Shown here one piece after another: positions 26,506-51,245 of a stretch of DNA of 64,000 bases. Position 1 is the stretch's first letter. Every line of letters starts with the position of its first letter. Where the stretch lies: positions 124,001 to 188,000 of the forward strand of contig JAUIBT010000001.1 in assembly GCA_030428255.1 (NCBI GenBank). The letters run 5' to 3'. This stretch comes from Alphaproteobacteria bacterium. GTDB lineage: Bacteria; Pseudomonadota; Alphaproteobacteria; UBA7985; JAUIBT01. Made by a program: the position numbers and the translations under genes. The notes below the pieces were generated by a model. It saw nothing but the letters and a program-made list of their open reading frames with translations, made no database searches and had not been told where the DNA came from.

Positions 26506-27570
26506 CTAGGCTGCCGAACGTTCGCGCGCCATGCGCTCGACTTCGCGCATGACCATGCCATACAGATCGCGAGGCTCGTCCGGGTCTGCGATCATGTCCA
26601 AATCAGTAAAGCGACCGCTGAGCTGCAAGGCGTCGCGCAACCAGCGCAAGGCCGAAAAGTCCTCAATCGCAAAGCCGACGCCATCGAACAGCGTCAGGGC
26701 GTCCTGGCTCTCGCGGCCCGCTACGGCGCCGGTCAAGACCTGCCACAGCTCCTTGACGGGATAGTCTGCGTCGAGCTGTTGGATCTCGCCTTCGATGCGG
26801 GTCTGCTCGGGATACTCGACGAAAATATCGCTGCGCAGCAAGACATCGCGGTGCAATTCGGTCTTGCCGGGGCAATCGCCGCCGATGGCGTTGATGTGCT
26901 GACCGCTGCCGACCATGTTGTCCGACAAGATGGTGGCGTACTGTTTGTCAGCGGTGCAGGTGGTGATGACCTGAGCCCCTTCCACGGCCGCTTGAGCGCT
27001 GTCGCAAATCACGATTTCCAGGCCAGAATTGGCCAAGTTCCTCGCACACTTCTCACTGGCGCTGCGATCAACATCGAACAAACGCACCTTGGTGATGCCG
27101 CACATGGCTTTCAGGGCCAGCGCCTGAAATTCAGACTGCGCGCCGTTGCCGATCAGGGCCAACGTCGTTGAGCCTTGGGGAGCCAGCGCCCGCGTAGCGA
27201 CCGCTGAAGTCGCTGCCGTGCGCAGGGCCGTCAGCAAGGTCATCTCTGTCATTAGGACCGGATAGCCAGTATCAACCGAGGCCAAGAGGCCGAAGGCCGT
27301 CACCGTCTGCAAGCCGTCGCGGGTGTTCTTGGGATGGCCGTTGACGTACTTAAAGCTGTAGTCCACGCCGTCTGAGGTCGGCATCAGCTCGATCACGCCC
27401 TCATGCGAGTGAGAGGCGACGCGCGGGATTTTGTCGAAGCGTTCCCACTTGGCGAAGTCTTCTTCGATATAGGCAGCGATCTGCTCAATGCAGGTCTCTA
27501 CCCCCAGATCGAGGACAAGGCGCATCATGTTCTCGACGCTGACAAAAGGAACGGTGTTGAGTGATTTCAT
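26506..27570 (-). CDS. ocd: Ornithine cyclodeaminase
   Basis: A 354-residue enzyme of the ornithine cyclodeaminase/mu-crystallin family converting L-ornithine to L-proline and ammonia with tightly bound NAD. Visible are the substrate-site region DGVDYSFKYVNGHP, the LTALRTAATSAVAT segment, and the nucleotide motif ALIGNGAQSEFQ. It is at the long end for the family and matches ornithine-specific members. GGAG lies 7-10 bases upstream of the ATG. Arginase is 33 bp upstream on the same strand: arginine to ornithine to proline. Confidence 0.92.
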   Translation of the reverse strand: MKSLNTVPFVSVENMMRLVLDLGVETCIEQIAAYIEEDFAKWERFDKIPRVASHSHEGVIELMPTSDGVDYSFKYVNGHPKNTRDGLQTVTAFGLLASVDTGYPVLMTEMTLLTALRTAATSAVATRALAPQGSTTLALIGNGAQSEFQALALKAMCGITKVRLFDVDRSASEKCARNLANSGLEIVICDSAQAAVEGAQVITTCTADKQYATILSDNMVGSGQHINAIGGDCPGKTELHRDVLLRSDIFVEYPEQTRIEGEIQQLDADYPVKELWQVLTGAVAGRESQDALTLFDGVGFAIEDFSALRWLRDALQLSGRFTDLDMIADPDEPRDLYGMVMREVERMARERSAA

Positions 27571-27603
27571 TGGGTTGCTCCGTCGAAGAAAGCGAAAGAA
27601 TGA

Positions 27604-28530
27604 CTAGGCGGCAACGGTAATACGGCGGCCAAACAGGCTGGCGGTCAGATCAACCAACAGCTTGGCAGAGGTGCCCGCATGATCCAGGAAAGGGTTGAGC
27701 TCGACCAAATCCAAAGACCGCATCAAGCCGGATTCGAAGATCAGCTCCATGATCAGGTGGGCTTCGCGCTCGCTTGCACCGCCTGGAACAGGCGTGCCGA
27801 CGCCGGGCGCAATGCCGGGATCAAGGAAATCGAGATCCAAACTCACGTGCAACCAGCCGTTGGCATCTGACACGCGCTCCAAGAAGGTGCGAAACGGACG
27901 GACAATGCCATGCTCATCGATCGAGCGCATGTCGTGAATCCACATGTCGGTTTTGGCCAGCGCGCACCGTTCATCGCGATCGACCGAGCGCAGGCCCAAA
28001 ATGCCGACCTGCCCCTGTGGCACAGGTTGGGCAAGCGGCGGGAAGTAGCCCTCAAAGCCAGGCTTGCCGGTCAGATAGGCCAAGGGTGTGCCGTGCAGGT
28101 TGCCGCTCTCGGTGGTGTCCAGTGTGTGGTAGTCCGAGTGCGCGTCTAGCCACAATACGAACAAAGGACGCTCGGCTTTGAGCGCTGCGGCCTGCATGCC
28201 CGCAACACTGCCAGCCGACAGCGCGTGGTCGCCGCCCATAAAGACCGGTACGCCGCCTTGATTAGCCAGCGCTTCGGCCTTGGCTGCGATTGCGGCAGTC
28301 CAAGCGGCCACTTCTGGCAGGGAATAGAGCGCGGCATTTGGGTGCGCGGCCACGCTTGGGTTCTTTGGCGCCTCAACGTCGCCTGCGTCCTGGCAGGTCA
28401 GGCCCAGGTCCTCCAGCGCGGTTTGCAATCCTGCCGTGCGCAGCGCTTCAGGGCCCATAATCGTTCCGCGACGGCGCGCGCCTTGGTGCAGGGCAAGCCC
28501 TAGCAGATGGCAGTCAACAGCAGAGTTCAC
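27604..28530 (-). CDS. Arginase
   Basis: A 308-residue manganese ureohydrolase splitting arginine to ornithine and urea. Mn ligands are visible in GGDHALSAG, WLDAHSDYHT and SLDLDFLDPG. The substrate-binding segment SGNLHGTPLAYL is arginase-like. I start at a GTG (28530) with AGGAG seven bases upstream, because the 39-residue in-frame extension would run through the regulator's operator region. First gene of the arginase-ocd operon, facing an Lrp-type regulator. Agmatinase is less likely given ocd next door. Confidence 0.9.
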   Translation of the reverse strand: MNSAVDCHLLGLALHQGARRRGTIMGPEALRTAGLQTALEDLGLTCQDAGDVEAPKNPSVAAHPNAALYSLPEVAAWTAAIAAKAEALANQGGVPVFMGGDHALSAGSVAGMQAAALKAERPLFVLWLDAHSDYHTLDTTESGNLHGTPLAYLTGKPGFEGYFPPLAQPVPQGQVGILGLRSVDRDERCALAKTDMWIHDMRSIDEHGIVRPFRTFLERVSDANGWLHVSLDLDFLDPGIAPGVGTPVPGGASEREAHLIMELIFESGLMRSLDLVELNPFLDHAGTSAKLLVDLTASLFGRRITVAA

Positions 28531-28605
28531 AAAGGCTCCTATGAGCAAGCGGTGATGGTTGGCGCCAAAATGTCGAATTATTTGGAAAGCGAACAGCCTA
28601 CATGT

Positions 28606-28620
28606 TATGCAATTTGCATA
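28606..28620. promoter_or_regulatory. Perfect 15-bp palindrome between arginase and Lrp-type genes
   Basis: TATGCAA T TTGCATA, a perfect 7-1-7 inverted repeat. It lies 22 bases before the regulator ATG and 76 bases before the arginase GTG. Length, AT-rich centre and divergent location fit a binding site of the adjacent Lrp/AsnC-type protein that would control both genes. Confidence 0.6.
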
Positions 28621-28641
28621 GAAGTTTTTACGAATTGACAA

Positions 28642-29076
28642 ATGCAATCGCCCACTTTGGACAAACTAGATCTGGAACTCATCGAACTGTTGCGTCGCGA
28701 TGGTCGCGCTTCGCTGGCGACCTTGGCCGGACAACTTAAGGTCACCCGCGCGACAGTACGCGCACGCATGGAGCGCTTGCAAGCCAACGGCAAGATCCTC
28801 AGCTTTACAGTCAAGCTCGATAGCGACTTGGGTCGCCCCCAAGTCTCAGGCATCACCTTGGTGAAGATTCTGGGTCATAAGACCGGTCGCATCGTTCAAC
28901 AATTGCGTTTGATTGAGGAGGTGCAAGACATCTATTCGACTAATGGCAAGTGGGACTTGCTAGTCGAGATTGCGGCCCCCAACCTTGAGCGGTTTGACCG
29001 GGCGCTGGACGCCATGCGCGCGATTGACGGCATTGCCGAGTCCGAAACGAACTTACGCCTCGCCGCCAAGCGTTGA
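28642..29076 (+). CDS. Lrp/AsnC-family regulator (likely arginine catabolism)
   Basis: A 144-residue regulator with an N-terminal HTH (LDLELIELLRRDGRASLATL, then LKVTRATVRARMERL) and a C-terminal RAM domain. It is divergent from arginase-ocd with a perfect palindrome between them. By analogy with ArgR/PutR-type Lrp proteins of alphaproteobacteria, it probably activates arginase and ocd when arginine or ornithine is present. The start is supported by the canonical TLDKLDLELIELL spacing; Shine-Dalgarno is weak. Confidence 0.88.
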   Translation: MQSPTLDKLDLELIELLRRDGRASLATLAGQLKVTRATVRARMERLQANGKILSFTVKLDSDLGRPQVSGITLVKILGHKTGRIVQQLRLIEEVQDIYSTNGKWDLLVEIAAPNLERFDRALDAMRAIDGIAESETNLRLAAKR

Positions 29077-29155
29077 AGGCTGCGTGACCGGGGAAAAAAG
29101 CTATACAAAGGCCTTGCATCGCGCGTCGCCATGTATTAGCAAGCTGTCACACATC

Positions 29156-29173
29156 GTGTTAGCACGCTAACAC
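29156..29173. promoter_or_regulatory. Perfect palindrome, candidate operator of the TrpR-like/his operon
   Basis: GTGTTAGC AC GCTAACAC, a perfect 8-2-8 inverted repeat 29 bases before the TrpR-like start. The size and the TAG..CTA half-sites resemble the layout of TrpR operators. There is no T run after it, so it is not a terminator. It is placed to repress the regulator and the his genes together. Confidence 0.6.
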
Positions 29174-29202
29174 ACCAACATTCAGCACAATCCGAGCCCC
29201 GC

Positions 29203-29538
29203 ATGCCAAATCGGCCCCAACCCCAGACCGCCAGCTACGGTGATCTACGCTTGCACGACCTCAGCCAGGCCCTTGCCGAGTGCCGGGGCGCAGACGAGAT
29301 TCAGCGGTTCTTGATCGACCTCTGTTCGCCCGCCGAGCTGCGCGCGCTGGCCGAGCGCTGGCATGTGGCACGGCTTTTGGATGAAGGCCGCCTCTCGTAT
29401 CGGCAAATCAGCGACATGACCGGGGTCTCCACCACGACCATCGGTCGCGTCGCGCGCTTCTTGACCAACGAACCGCATCAAGGCTACCGCCTGGTGCTCG
29501 ATCGCTTGGGTCACACCACCACAGATCAGCGCAGCTAA
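29203..29538 (+). CDS. TrpR-like (YerC/YecD-type) DNA-binding protein heading the his operon
   Basis: A 111-residue protein of the TrpR/YerC superfamily. Helices in residues 17-60 include FLIDLCSPAELRALAERWHV, and the HTH is SYRQISDMTGVSTTTIGRV (about 65-83). It starts 36 bp before hisG on the same strand and has a perfect palindrome directly upstream. YerC-type proteins are known near histidine genes in Firmicutes; here the context strongly suggests a histidine-responsive repressor, by analogy to TrpR and tryptophan. The co-repressor is an inference. Confidence 0.85.
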   Translation: MPNRPQPQTASYGDLRLHDLSQALAECRGADEIQRFLIDLCSPAELRALAERWHVARLLDEGRLSYRQISDMTGVSTTTIGRVARFLTNEPHQGYRLVLDRLGHTTTDQRS

Positions 29539-29573: not shown

Positions 29574-30461
29574 ATGGACACCCAACGCCTTAGGATTGCC
29601 ATCCAAAAATCGGGCCGCATGGCCGAAGGCTCGAACGAGCTGCTGCAGGCCGCTGGCTTGCGCCTGCCCTCGCGCTCTAAGACCACGCTGTTTCAGCGCG
29701 CCCGAAACCTGCCCATCGATCTGCTGTTGGTGCGCGACGACGACATCCCGCACTTCGTTGCGACGGGCGTTGCGGACATCGGCATCGTGGGCGAAAACGT
29801 CTACGCCGAATGGCAGCTCGACGCCCCCGAAGCGCCGGTATCTTTGGTGCGTCGCTTGGGCTTTTCCTTCTGCCGCCTTTGCCTGGCCACACCGAAGGAC
29901 GGTCCCCTACGCTCGCCCAAAGATCTGGAGGGAAAGAGCCTCGCCACCTCCTACCCCTTGATTTTGCAACGCTATTTCGACGAGCAAGGCATCAACGCCA
30001 GCATCATGCAGATGTCGGGTTCGGTTGAGGTTGCGCCCAAACTGGGCATTGCCGACGGCATTTTCGACATCGTGTCCTCAGGCGCGACTTTGGAGGCCAA
30101 CGGCCTGGGGACCATCGCCGACGTTTTCCACTCAGAGGCCTTGATAATCCAAACCGAAAAAGCCCTGAGCGAAGATAAAGCCAGCATCCTGGCGCGCCTG
30201 CTGACGCGCATCGAGTGTGTCCAAGCCTCGCGGCAAATCAAGTACCTCATGCTGAACGCGCCCCAGTCCAAACTGGCCGCCATCACCAACCTGTTGCCGG
30301 GTGCGGATGCACCAACCGTGCTGCCGCTGCAAGGCAAGGGCGACATGGTGGCGATCCACGCCGTTGTTCAGGATGCCGACCTGTGGGAAACGCTGGAGAA
30401 GCTTAAAGCCGAGGGCGCAAGCTCGATCCTGGTAACACCAATTGAAAAGATGATGGCCTGA
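29574..30461 (+). CDS. hisG: ATP phosphoribosyltransferase, long form
   Basis: The first enzyme of histidine synthesis, joining ATP and PRPP; usually feedback-inhibited by histidine. 295 residues, which is the long form with a C-terminal regulatory ACT-like domain (about 225-295, ending VTPIEKMMA), so no HisZ partner is needed. Catalytic-domain markers are LRIAIQKSGRMAEGS, GVADIGIVGENVY and DIVSSGATLEANGL. An AGGA precedes the ATG. The stop overlaps the hisCB start by one base (TGATG). Confidence 0.95.
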   Translation: MDTQRLRIAIQKSGRMAEGSNELLQAAGLRLPSRSKTTLFQRARNLPIDLLLVRDDDIPHFVATGVADIGIVGENVYAEWQLDAPEAPVSLVRRLGFSFCRLCLATPKDGPLRSPKDLEGKSLATSYPLILQRYFDEQGINASIMQMSGSVEVAPKLGIADGIFDIVSSGATLEANGLGTIADVFHSEALIIQTEKALSEDKASILARLLTRIECVQASRQIKYLMLNAPQSKLAAITNLLPGADAPTVLPLQGKGDMVAIHAVVQDADLWETLEKLKAEGASSILVTPIEKMMA

Positions 30462-32098
30462 TGTCTTTTGATGCACGATCTTTGGCGCGCCCTTGGTTGT
30501 TGGACGCCGCAGCCTACGTCGGTGAGCGCGAGCTGTACGGCCAGGACGGCCTGACTTTGCTGGATATGAACGAGAACCCTAACGGCGGCAATGGCGGCCT
30601 GAACCGCTATCCCGGGCCCGAGGTGCGCGCGCTCTATGCCCGCATGGCCCGGCTCTATGACCGGCCCGAGGACAATCTAATGATCTCGCCAGGCTCGGAT
30701 GAAGCCATCGGCATGCTGATTCGTGCCTTTTGTGCGCCCGGTGAGCACAGCATCGTCATCAATCCGCCCACCTTCGGCATGTATGCGCTCAGCGCCAAGG
30801 TGAATGGCGTCGCCAGCGTCGCGGTGCCCATGTTGGAGCGCGGTCGCATTGACTGGGACGCCCTGAACGCGGCGGCAGATGGTAACGCCAACGCTCGGCT
30901 GATCTTCTTGTGCACGCCGCAAAATCCCTGTGGCACCGCCGTCCCGCGTGACCAGATCATCGCTTTTGCCCGCCGCCAAGCCGGCCGCATTGTCGTGGTG
31001 GATGAAGCCTACCAAGAATTCGCGAATCAAGAGAGCCTGATCGCGGAGACCGGGCTGCCCAACCTGGTTGTGCTGCGCACGCTGTCAAAGGCTTATGCCC
31101 TAGCGGGCGCACGCATCGGCTGCCTAATCTCCTCGGCCGAAATCGTCAAGATCGTCAAGGCATTGCAAGGCCCCTACGCCCTGCCCACGCCCTCGGTCAA
31201 GGCCGCGCTGGAGGCTCTGAGCCCTGCGGGCATGGCCCAGTCTGCGCGTCAAATCGCCGAACTCAAGGCCGAACGGGACCGATTGTCCGCTGCTCTGAGC
31301 CAACACGATGACGTACTAGAAGTGTTCGACAGCCAGGCCAACTTCTTGTTCATCATCATGGACAAGGCCGAGGTCTGGCATCAAGAGCTGCTGAAGACCT
31401 ACGGCATTTTGCTGCGCAATCAAACCAAGGCGTTGGCGGGCGGACTGCGCATCTCGGTCGGCACGCCTGAGGAAAACGACGGCCTACTGCAAGCCCTGGG
31501 CTTGGCACCTGCGCCCAAACCCGACCGCAAGGCCGAGCTGAAACGCGAGACCAAAGAGACCAGCATTTACTGCGCGGTTAATCTGGACAAGCCCGGCCCC
31601 TCGCGCTGCGAGACCGGCGTCGGCTTCTTTGATCACATGCTGGACCAGCTCACCAAGCACTCCGGCATCGCCATGATCATCAAGACAGAAGGCGACACCC
31701 ACATCGACACCCACCACACGGTCGAAGATACCATGATCGCGCTGGGACAGGTTCTGGATCAAGCCGTGGGCGACAAGCGTGGTATCCTGCGCTATGGCCA
31801 CTTCGATTTGGTGATGGACGAGGCCCGCGCAACGGCAGCCATCGACCTGTCAGGCCGCGCCCACGCCAGTTTCGAGGGCAGCTTTAAGGCTGATGCCCTG
31901 GGCGGGCTGCAAACCGAAATGGTGGCGCACTGCATCCAATCTCTGGCTGAAAAGCTGCGCGCAACCATTCATGTCACGGTGACCGGCGACAACGACCACC
32001 ACAAGTGCGAAGCCGTGTTCAAGGCTCTGGCCAGAGCACTGAAAATGGCGGTCAGGGTCGAAGGCGACGCGCTGCCCAGCACGAAAGGACTTTTGTGA
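30461..32098 (+). CDS. hisCB: HisC-HisB fusion: histidinol-phosphate aminotransferase / imidazoleglycerol-phosphate dehydratase
   Basis: A 545-residue bifunctional protein. Residues 1-348 form a fold-type I aminotransferase: N155 in NPCG, D181 and Y184 in VVDEAYQ, PLP-lysine K210 in TLSKAYALAG. A short linker (349-361) leads to a complete IGP dehydratase (362-545) with metal motifs HHTVED (418-423) and DNDHHKCEA (510-518). The two domains catalyse consecutive steps, dehydratase then transaminase. There is no intervening stop, start or frameshift. This differs from the enteric HisB, whose dehydratase is fused to histidinol phosphatase. hisH begins on its stop (TGATG). Confidence 0.93.
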   Translation: MSFDARSLARPWLLDAAAYVGERELYGQDGLTLLDMNENPNGGNGGLNRYPGPEVRALYARMARLYDRPEDNLMISPGSDEAIGMLIRAFCAPGEHSIVINPPTFGMYALSAKVNGVASVAVPMLERGRIDWDALNAAADGNANARLIFLCTPQNPCGTAVPRDQIIAFARRQAGRIVVVDEAYQEFANQESLIAETGLPNLVVLRTLSKAYALAGARIGCLISSAEIVKIVKALQGPYALPTPSVKAALEALSPAGMAQSARQIAELKAERDRLSAALSQHDDVLEVFDSQANFLFIIMDKAEVWHQELLKTYGILLRNQTKALAGGLRISVGTPEENDGLLQALGLAPAPKPDRKAELKRETKETSIYCAVNLDKPGPSRCETGVGFFDHMLDQLTKHSGIAMIIKTEGDTHIDTHHTVEDTMIALGQVLDQAVGDKRGILRYGHFDLVMDEARATAAIDLSGRAHASFEGSFKADALGGLQTEMVAHCIQSLAEKLRATIHVTVTGDNDHHKCEAVFKALARALKMAVRVEGDALPSTKGLL

Positions 32099-32765: not shown

Positions 32766-33497
32766 ATGATTTTATACCCCGCAATGGACCTGATCGACGG
32801 CAAATGCGTGCGCCTGTCCAAAGGCAAGTTCGACGCCAAAACCGAATACAACGACGACCCCCGCGCTCAGGCCAAATCCTTCGCAGACCAAGGCGCGACC
32901 TGGTTGCACGTCGTGGACCTGGACGGCACCAAGGCGGGCGCACCCCTGCAAGCGGCCTTCATCCAGGCCAGCGTCGAGGGGCTGGGCTTGAAGGTCCAGA
33001 CCGGTGGCGGCATTCGCTCTCTTGACTCGGCGCGGCAGGTGCTGGACGCAGGCATCGACCGCGTGGTGATCGGCTCCTTGTCGGTCGCCCAGCCCGAAGC
33101 CATGGGCAGGCTGGTCCAAGACTACGGCAGCGAGCGCGTTGTGGCCGCCCTTGATCTGGTGATGCAAGACGGCGCGCCCTTCATCGCGACCCACGGCTGG
33201 CAGTCGGTGTCCGATAAGCCGCTGGCTTGGGCCTGTCAGACCATGATCGATCAGGGCGTGAGCCATATTTTGATGACGGATATCTCCAAGGATGGCCTGT
33301 TGCAGGGCCCCAACGTGGCGCTCTATCAGCAAGCTGCTCAGGACTTCCCACAGCTCAAGATCCAAGCCTCGGGCGGCGTGTCCAGCTTGGACGACCTGCG
33401 CCAGCTCACCAGCAGCGGCGCGGACGGCGTGATCGTCGGCAAGGCCATTTATGAAAAGCGCTTTACAGTCGCTGAAGCCCTGGAGGTCTTATGCTGA
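32766..33497 (+). CDS. hisA: ProFAR isomerase
   Basis: A 243-residue (beta/alpha)8 barrel isomerising ProFAR to PRFAR. The catalytic Asp pair is in the first strand ([14 protein letters not shown]) and in [10 protein letters not shown]. Phosphate loops TGGGIRS and SGGVSS are present. Its 3' end overlaps hisF by seven bases. Confidence 0.95.
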
Positions 33498-34258
33498 GCC
33501 GTCGCATTATTCCCTGTTTGGACGTGGCCGACGGCAAGGTCGTCAAGGGCGTGCAGTTTAAGAACCACGAGATCGTGGGTGAGATTGTTGACCTGTCCCA
33601 GCGCTATGTCGATGAAGGGGCGGATGAGCTGGTCTTCTATCACATAACTGCTTCAGCCGATGGTCAAACCGTCAATCTGGATTGGGTGGACGCCGTGGCC
33701 CAGCGCCTGGACATCCCCTTTTGCGTCGCTGGCGGCATTCGCAGCGTGGCCGACGCAGCCGCGCGCCTGGAAGCTGGCGCCGACAAGATATCCATCAACT
33801 CGCCCGCGCTGGAGCGCCCAGATTTCATTGACGAGATGGTGGCGGCTTTTGGCAGCCAATGCGTGGTGATCGGCATCGACAGCTTGGAGGTCGATGGCCA
33901 GTATCAGGTCAAGCAATACACCGGCCGCCCGGATAAGATGCAAGACTCGCGCCGCGATACCTTGACTTGGGCCAAAGAGGCTGTCGAGCGCGGAGCGGGT
34001 GAAATCGTGCTGAACTGCATGAACCAAGATGGCGTGCGTCAGGGTTACGACATCCGCCAGTTGGCCGCAGTGCGCGCCGCGGTTTCAGTGCCTTTGATCG
34101 CCAGCGGCGGTGCGGGCAAGCAAGAGCATTTCAAAGAGGTGTTCGAGCAAGCAGATGTTGACGGCGCGCTGGCGGCCTCCGTCTTCCACAAGCGGATTAT
34201 CCCCATCCCCGAACTTAAGGCCTGGCTGAGCAGCCAAGGCCAACCCATGCGGCTCTAG
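33491..34258 (+). CDS. hisF: Imidazole glycerol phosphate synthase, cyclase subunit
   Basis: A 255-residue barrel paralogous to HisA that uses ammonia from HisH to form IGP and AICAR. Catalytic Asp residues lie in [14 protein letters not shown] and LNCMNQDG; phosphate sites are CVAGGIRS and ASGGAG. It ends the visible his operon. hisD, hisI/E and histidinol phosphatase are absent and must be elsewhere. Confidence 0.95.
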
Positions 34259-49067: not shown

Positions 49068-51245
49068 ATGTCCCTATACCATCCCGAGACCTCTGCTGAG
49101 ATCGTCGCCGAACATGGCCTCGCGCCCGACGAATACGAAAAAGCCGTCGCGATCATGGGCCGCGCGCCCAACCTTTTGGAGCTGGGTATCTTCTCGGTCA
49201 TGTGGTCCGAGCATTGCTCTTACAAATCGTCTAAGCTGTGGCTCAAGACGCTGCCTACCGAAGGCCCGCAGGTCATCCAAGGCCCCGGCGAGAACGCAGG
49301 CGTTGTTGATATCGGCGACGGCCAGGCCGCAATCTTTAAGATCGAGAGCCACAACCACCCCTCTTTCATTGAGCCCTACCAAGGGGCAGCGACAGGCGTT
49401 GGCGGCATACTGCGCGATGTCTTCACCATGGGCGCGCGCCCTGTGGCCAACCTCAACGCGCTGCGTTTTGGCGCGCCGGACCACCCGCGCACCAAGCACC
49501 TAGTTAAAGGCGTGGTCGCAGGGATCGGCGGCTATGGCAACTGCGTGGGCGTGCCGACCGTTGGCGGTGAGATCAACTTCCACCCCGCCTATAACGGCAA
49601 TTGCCTGGTCAACGCCATGACCGTCGGCCTGGCCGATACCGACAAGATTTTCTACTCCGCTGCCTCTCAGATCGGCGTGCCGGTGGTCTATGTCGGCTCA
49701 AAGACCGGGCGCGATGGTATCCATGGCGCGACCATGGCTTCGACCGAGTTCGACGAGGACAGCGAAGAAAAGCGCCCCACCGTGCAGGTCGGCGATCCCT
49801 TCACCGAAAAGCTGCTGATCGAGGCTTGCCTGGAGCTGATGGCAACCGACGCTATCCTGGCCATTCAGGATATGGGCGCGGCAGGCCTAACCAGCTCTTC
49901 GTTCGAGATGGCCTCTAAGGGCGGCACCGGCGTCGTGCTGGAGCTGGACAAGGTGCCCATGCGCGAAGCAGGCATGACGCCCTACGAGCTCATGCTATCT
50001 GAGAGCCAAGAGCGCATGCTGATGACGCTCAAACCTGGCCGCGAACCCGAGGCACAGGCCATCATGGAAAAGTGGGGCCTGGATTTTGCCGTCGTCGGCA
50101 CCATCACCGACACCGGCCGCATGCAGCTCAAGTGGGACGGCGAGACCGTTGGTGATCTGCCGATTGATCCGCTTGCCCTGGCCTCGCCCGAGTATGACCG
50201 CCCGCACGTCGCTACCCCGGCCCAGCCTGCGGTGACCCTGCCGGAAAGCCAAGACCTGCTGAGTGATTTGGCGACCCTGATTGCCAGCCCCGATCTTTGC
50301 TCGCGCCGTTGGGTCTGGGAGCAGTACGATCATATGGTGATGGGCGATACGATCCAACGCCCGGGCGGTGATGCTGCCGTCGTGCGCGTCCACGGCAGCC
50401 AAAAAGGCCTGGCCATGAGCGTAGATTGCAGCCCGCGTTATTGCCTGGCCGATCCGCAGTCCGGCGGCGCGCAAGCCGTTGCCGAAGGCTTCCGCAACTT
50501 ATCGGCAGTCGGTGCAAAGCCGCTGGCGGTGACAAACAACCTCAACTTCGGCAATCCGCAAAAGCCTGAGATCATGGGCCAACTGGTTGGCGCGGTTCAG
50601 GGCATGGGCGAGGCCTGCAAGGCGCTGGATATGCCCGTCGTTTCGGGCAACGTCAGCCTTTACAACGAGACCGAAGGCCAGGCCATCTTGCCAACCCCGG
50701 TGATTGGCAGCTTGGGCCTGATGGCCGACATCGACCGTATGGCCACCGTTGCGCTGAAGCGCGACGGGGACACGCTGGTTGTGATTGGGCAATCACAGGG
50801 CCACTTGGGGCAATCGCTCTATGCTCGCGAGTGTCACGGCCTGGAAGCCGGACCGGCCCCTGCCATCGACTTGCAGCGCGAGCGCGCCACAGGCGACTTT
50901 GTGCGCGGCTTGATCGAAGAGGGCCTGGTCGACACCTGTCACGACGTGTCAGATGGTGGCTTGCTGGTTGCAGTGGCTGAGATGGCCATCGCAGGTGACA
51001 AGGGCGTCGCCATCGTCAGCGCAGAGACCTCGACCGCCTTCTGGTACGGCGAAGAGCAAGCACGCTATGTGGTGGCGCTGCCCGACGCGGCGGTGGTTCA
51101 AGAGCGCGCCAAGGCGGCGGGCATCCCGGTCCACATCCTGGCGCGCGTCGAAGGCGACGCCATCACCTTGCCATCTGGCCAGATAGTCGCGACACGCGAT
51201 CTGCGCTCGAAATTTGAAGGCGGCTTGCCCACATTGCTGGCTTAG
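49068..51245 (+). CDS. purL: Phosphoribosylformylglycinamidine synthase subunit PurL (small form)
   Basis: The 725-residue ATP-dependent synthetase subunit (PurL of the PurSQL type). Markers are [38 protein letters not shown] and [11 protein letters not shown]. The protein is full-length. A PCuAC gene follows 25 bp later but is functionally unrelated. Confidence 0.97.

Follow-up and report, generated by a model that had tools for sequence, protein, structure and literature searches.

HisR was defined by Ashniev et al. (2022), who reported it in 11 genomes of the Rhodobacterales and Caulobacterales (PMC9413887). As described there, hisR of Proteobacteria is the first gene of the his operon, with its site immediately upstream and a Proteobacterial motif of TGTAnTArnnnnyTnTTACA, while DNA binding of a HisR-family protein from R. 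gnavus to its operator is stimulated by histidine in vitro (PMC9413887). Literature searches on HisR, on YerC and on TrpR-like regulators of his genes turned up this paper and no other.

Here, we analysed a 64-kb stretch of alphaproteobacterial DNA (the window, at its full length), in which the genes hisR-hisG-hisCB-hisH-hisA-hisF very probably constitute a self-regulated his operon under HisR, a TrpR-family histidine repressor. The layout and motif published for Proteobacteria agree with this operon (PMC9413887). An earlier, sequence-only reading had called his regulation poorly known in alphaproteobacteria; since HisR with the same layout has already been predicted in Rhodobacterales and Caulobacterales according to the published account (PMC9413887), the control proposed here is of no uncharted kind. 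The regulatory principle being published, our analysis extends a little-studied histidine repressor to a further alphaproteobacterial lineage and provides a class-wide operator footprint that is directly testable.

A YerC/TrpR-family gene heads the his operon

The genes of the predicted operon are as follows.

29203–29538, + strand: hisR, YerC/TrpR-family repressor of 111 aa with an ATG start (TIGR02531, Pfam Trp_repressor, structural relatives)
29574–30461, + strand: hisG of the long form, carrying the C-terminal domain TIGR03455 (profile matches, ORF list)
30461–32098, + strand: hisC-hisB (IGP dehydratase) fusion of 545 aa, also found in L008 and L009
32089–32691, + strand: hisH (profile match; the ORF list puts the start further upstream)
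32766–33497, + strand: hisA (profile match, ORF list)
33491–34258, + strand: hisF (profile match, ORF list)

The product of the ORF at 29203–29538 matches the YerC/YecD model TIGR02531 with 57.4 bits (cut-off 42.2) and Pfam Trp_repressor with 74 bits, and its closest solved structures are the TrpR-like proteins 3g1c, 3frw and 3kor. TrpR proper was ruled out as an identity for this protein, the TrpR equivalog model TIGR01321 returning only 25 bits against a cut-off of 67.25. hisR is the one Trp_repressor-family gene found in the whole genome. As the sequence-only reading had it, the gene directly precedes hisG, from which it is separated by a gap of 35 bp, and the order hisR-hisG is kept in the two further genomes available for the genus (L008 and L009; L004 is the same genome as L009, and L009 was used for comparison).

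hisC and hisB form a single continuous ORF in 3/3 genomes of the genus (window, 30461–32098; L008, 5272–6909; L009, 5256–6905). A literature search on hisCB with histidine found no publication, and the accessible part of a 2007 review on fusions among his genes (PMC1963479) makes no reference to hisC. Directly ahead of the his operon lies an Lrp/AsnC-type regulator gene (28642–29076), oriented divergently to genes for arginase and ornithine cyclodeaminase (region 26506–29076); its position ahead of hisR is conserved in L008 and L009.

Two predicted operators precede hisR

Two putative HisR sites were located between the Lrp/AsnC-type gene and hisR.

29155–29174, no strand assigned: main predicted HisR operator O1, containing the perfect 8-2-8 palindrome 29156–29173 (26.2 bits)
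29132–29151, no strand assigned: second predicted HisR operator O2, an imperfect palindrome of 20 bp that starts 23 bp ahead of O1 (18.7 bits)

The O1 palindrome, GTGTTAGC-AC-GCTAACAC, ends 29 bp ahead of the hisR ATG, as had been noticed from the sequence, where O2 had been overlooked. Nothing else in the 3.5-Mb genome matches this palindrome at fewer than 3 mismatches. For scoring the window we used a matrix of 17 sites from outside its genus (consensus TGTATTAgCacGcTAATACA; L018 and L019 excluded), which we consider the fairer test for this locus because the groups of loci described below were split by hand post hoc and the operator of the window itself had served as the seed for searching group A. 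With this matrix the next-best place in the 64-kb window after O1 and O2 reaches 5.6 bits, and 0/147,860 background 20-mers reach 8 bits. O2 recurs, identically spaced, in L008 (17.0 bits) and L009 (20.6 bits), and a three-way alignment of the diverged intergenic region within the genus leaves O1, O2 and a CTTGC box as the main conserved stretches. Extra partial sites offset by 8 or 16 bp occur in some other genera, part of them because the motif is self-similar.

The absence of a his leader peptide or attenuator noted from the sequence alone was borne out: no Rfam family reached its gathering score in the window, and therefore neither a T-box nor a his leader is indicated, while no series of His codons is present in any of the upstream short ORFs checked. 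On these grounds, control of the his genes by an attenuator or a T-box was rejected. A scan for sigma-70-like promoters passed no candidate. Perfect 8-2-8 palindromes are not unique to this site, the 64-kb window holding two of them (the other at 50780), and O1 could in principle be an inverted repeat that arose by chance, or an RNA hairpin; we regard this as highly improbable, given that the same motif stands in the same place across genera, that no Rfam match was obtained and that no forward-strand terminator was found near the palindrome.

Under the repressor reading, HisR would bind histidine when it is plentiful, an effector suggested by the family, and the loaded protein would dock on both 20-bp operators just upstream of hisR, presumably as a dimer and with cooperation between the two sites. 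Docked HisR would then keep hisR and the his genes from being transcribed; these are probably read as a single transcript from a promoter that the operators may overlap; repression is assumed here rather than activation. When histidine is scarce, HisR would release the operators.

The predicted operator is conserved ahead of hisR across the class

A scan of named genomes yielded 78 loci carrying a relative, and in 75 of them hisG follows immediately, in the same orientation; in L010 and L017 other genes follow instead, and L051 ends with its contig. Together with four others these make 82 loci, which were split by hand after inspection into group A (n=22, mixed genera) and group B (n=60, mostly Brevundimonas, close kin and non-independent).

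For every group-A locus (22/22), the top site by leave-one-out scoring within about 300 bp upstream outscored each control stretch from that locus and 200/200 shuffles, the weakest sites being those of L018 (7.6 bits) and L019 (13.7 bits). A variant site close to TGTTACAGCATAGTGGAACG scored at least 24.5 bits in 59/60 group-B loci, the best of 1291 control stretches reaching −1.4 bits; the remaining locus, L049, returned 1.1 bits. The footprinting that the sequence-only reading had proposed therefore recovers a site in all group-A and nearly all Brevundimonas-type loci, and the 20-bp palindrome upstream of hisR is conserved ahead of its orthologues. L049 and three loci of the class survey described below (L129, L130 and L140) have no good site in the stretch searched, which we count against the operon-repressor reading.

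These data bear on whether HisR represses its own gene only, with the his genes transcribed constitutively or, for the most part, from a different promoter. The sites do sit before hisR, and hisR of L010 and L017 retains its site without an adjoining hisG. The gap of just 35 bp and the linkage to hisG in 75/78 loci argue against this arrangement, as does the persistence of sites in L117 and L119, in which hisR and hisG diverge, with a 24–25 bit site before hisR on the side facing hisG. We consider autoregulation alone very unlikely. The finding that L010 and L017 carry hisR and a good operator with no his gene adjoining is nevertheless counted against control of the his genes by HisR, and among the loci inspected after a pattern search of these two genomes none was a his target.

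Some related regulators are linked to other genes

In a class survey, a YerC-type protein above cut-off was detected in 30 of 385 genomes, some of these loci duplicating genomes represented elsewhere in our set (e.g. L123 = L009, L122 = L005). hisG is downstream in eight loci and divergent in two (L117 and L119), an ABC substrate-binding-like gene follows the hisR homologue in 12 (checked with Pfam in L005 only, the others assigned by eye) and eight have other or unclassified neighbours. The ABC-linked loci are L115, L118, L122, L124, L125, L126, L130, L131, L134, L136, L137 and L139; the operon in L005 encodes a PF04392 binding protein and a PF02653 permease. Within 260 bp upstream, a site of at least 10 bits is present in 25/30 survey loci, including 11/12 of those linked to ABC genes. 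L120 and L127 carry the Brevundimonas operator variant, L129, L130 and L140 have no site within this distance, and L121, L130 and L132 have an equal or better site elsewhere in the locus.

We built a HisR tree of 54 rows (19 group-A loci, 9/60 group-B loci and 26/30 class-survey loci, the survey repeats L120, L123, L127 and L135 being left out). The ABC-linked loci form one group, and the window groups with mostly hisG-linked relatives, nearest to L010 and L011, in a topology with many poorly supported forks.

Because 12/30 survey members head an ABC-transporter-like operon, family membership alone leaves the target unfixed, which also counts against the histidine-repressor reading; the ABC-linked members may sense histidine or tryptophan. 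HisR of the window might likewise control the his operon while sensing another ligand, e.g. tryptophan as TrpR does, in a form of cross-pathway control. Its operator is closer to the TrpR motif than to the Firmicutes HisR motif as published (PMC9413887), but the TrpR model score lies far under its cut-off, hisG follows directly in nearly all named loci and the R. gnavus relative responds to histidine (PMC9413887), and we judge a different ligand unlikely.

HisR control appears to cover part of the pathway

With the 17-site matrix, the best place at the hisD locus (L094) scores 0.0 bits and that at the hisIE locus (L104) −2.1 bits, and no HisR site was found within flanks of about 1.5 kb at either, so that the palindrome sought ahead of hisD and hisI in this genome did not materialize. 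The genome holds three HisD-family genes, of which the histidine-synthesis one was picked by score and by its conserved position in the murA cluster; the other two loci (L098 and L100) have no site above 3.1 bits. Since hisD and hisIE are located elsewhere, without sites in the stretches scanned, control looks partial, and judging from these scans only hisR itself and hisG-hisCB-hisH-hisA-hisF appear to be under HisR control. The earlier proposal that a TrpR-type repressor governs histidine synthesis is accordingly backed by footprinting and gene linkage for the operon, and finds no such backing at hisD and hisIE in the stretches scanned.

A genome-wide HisR regulon was rejected, as allowing up to 3 mismatches gave no clear surplus of matches over a backward control (8 in the genome itself versus 21 in the control; 4 versus 3 per strand, with O1 and O2 included). 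A 2-mismatch match in Planktomarina, inside an ORF read by eye as aldehyde dehydrogenase, was dropped as chance.

The operon may have displaced native his genes

No hisR relative was found in eight genomes that belong to the same order but not to the genus. Six of the eight return a HisG match, with 31–38 % identity and ending near residue 202–219 of 295; the open frames measure 226–249 aa in five of these six and 691 aa in G005, and we take the same-order HisG, from its sequence, as the short form. The order murA-DUF2948-hisG-hisD occurs in 4/6 of these genomes, and UPF0262 follows hisG in the other two. In the window's genus (L094 and L095) the cluster reads murA-DUF2948-hisD-UPF0262, with hisG absent, and the sole HisG in each of the three genus genomes is the copy in the hisR operon. 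A short hisG between DUF2948 and hisD is kept in relatives from the order (L159–L165) and missing in L094 and L095.

Identity to the same-order proteins is 59–62 % for HisD and 58–65 % for MurA, and 40–43 % for HisF, 36–41 % for HisA and 38–43 % for HisH. The lack of hisR in these same-order genomes, their short HisG, the low HisF, HisA and HisH identities and the loss of hisG beside hisD together suggest that the hisR-led operon probably displaced native his genes. We lean, by a small measure, towards a portable his operon with its own repressor having displaced both the native short hisG beside hisD and native hisH-hisA-hisF, native hisD being left outside the repressor's control. The low HisF, HisA and HisH identities may instead reflect faster change or old paralogy. 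A search of phage records gave two weak protein matches only.

If displacement did occur, one pathway would combine an unregulated native portion with a foreign one that regulates itself, and the incoming operon would also have brought a second operator and the hisC-hisB fusion. The locus would then be a case of a regulator and its target operon apparently moving together and displacing native genes, with hisD left behind.

Comparison with known systems

The Firmicutes YerC/HisR proteins (R. gnavus and B. subtilis; Eubacterium eligens structure 3g1c) belong to the same protein family as HisR of the window, but their published consensus, cacTTTAnnnnnnTAAAgtg, is unlike its site (PMC9413887). 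E. coli TrpR shares the Pfam family, and its published motif has a similar operator length and the same outer GT..AC ends (PMC9413887); in contrast, the gene described here heads his genes rather than trp genes, and its product scores 25 bits with TIGR01321 where 67.25 are needed.

The closest system is the Proteobacterial HisR, relative to which, as far as the published description extends, the window differs in several respects (PMC9413887). Its lineage may belong to neither of the two orders of Alphaproteobacteria reported in that paper, its operon is without hisD and hisIE and has hisC fused to hisB, and two predicted operators, 23 bp apart, precede hisR.
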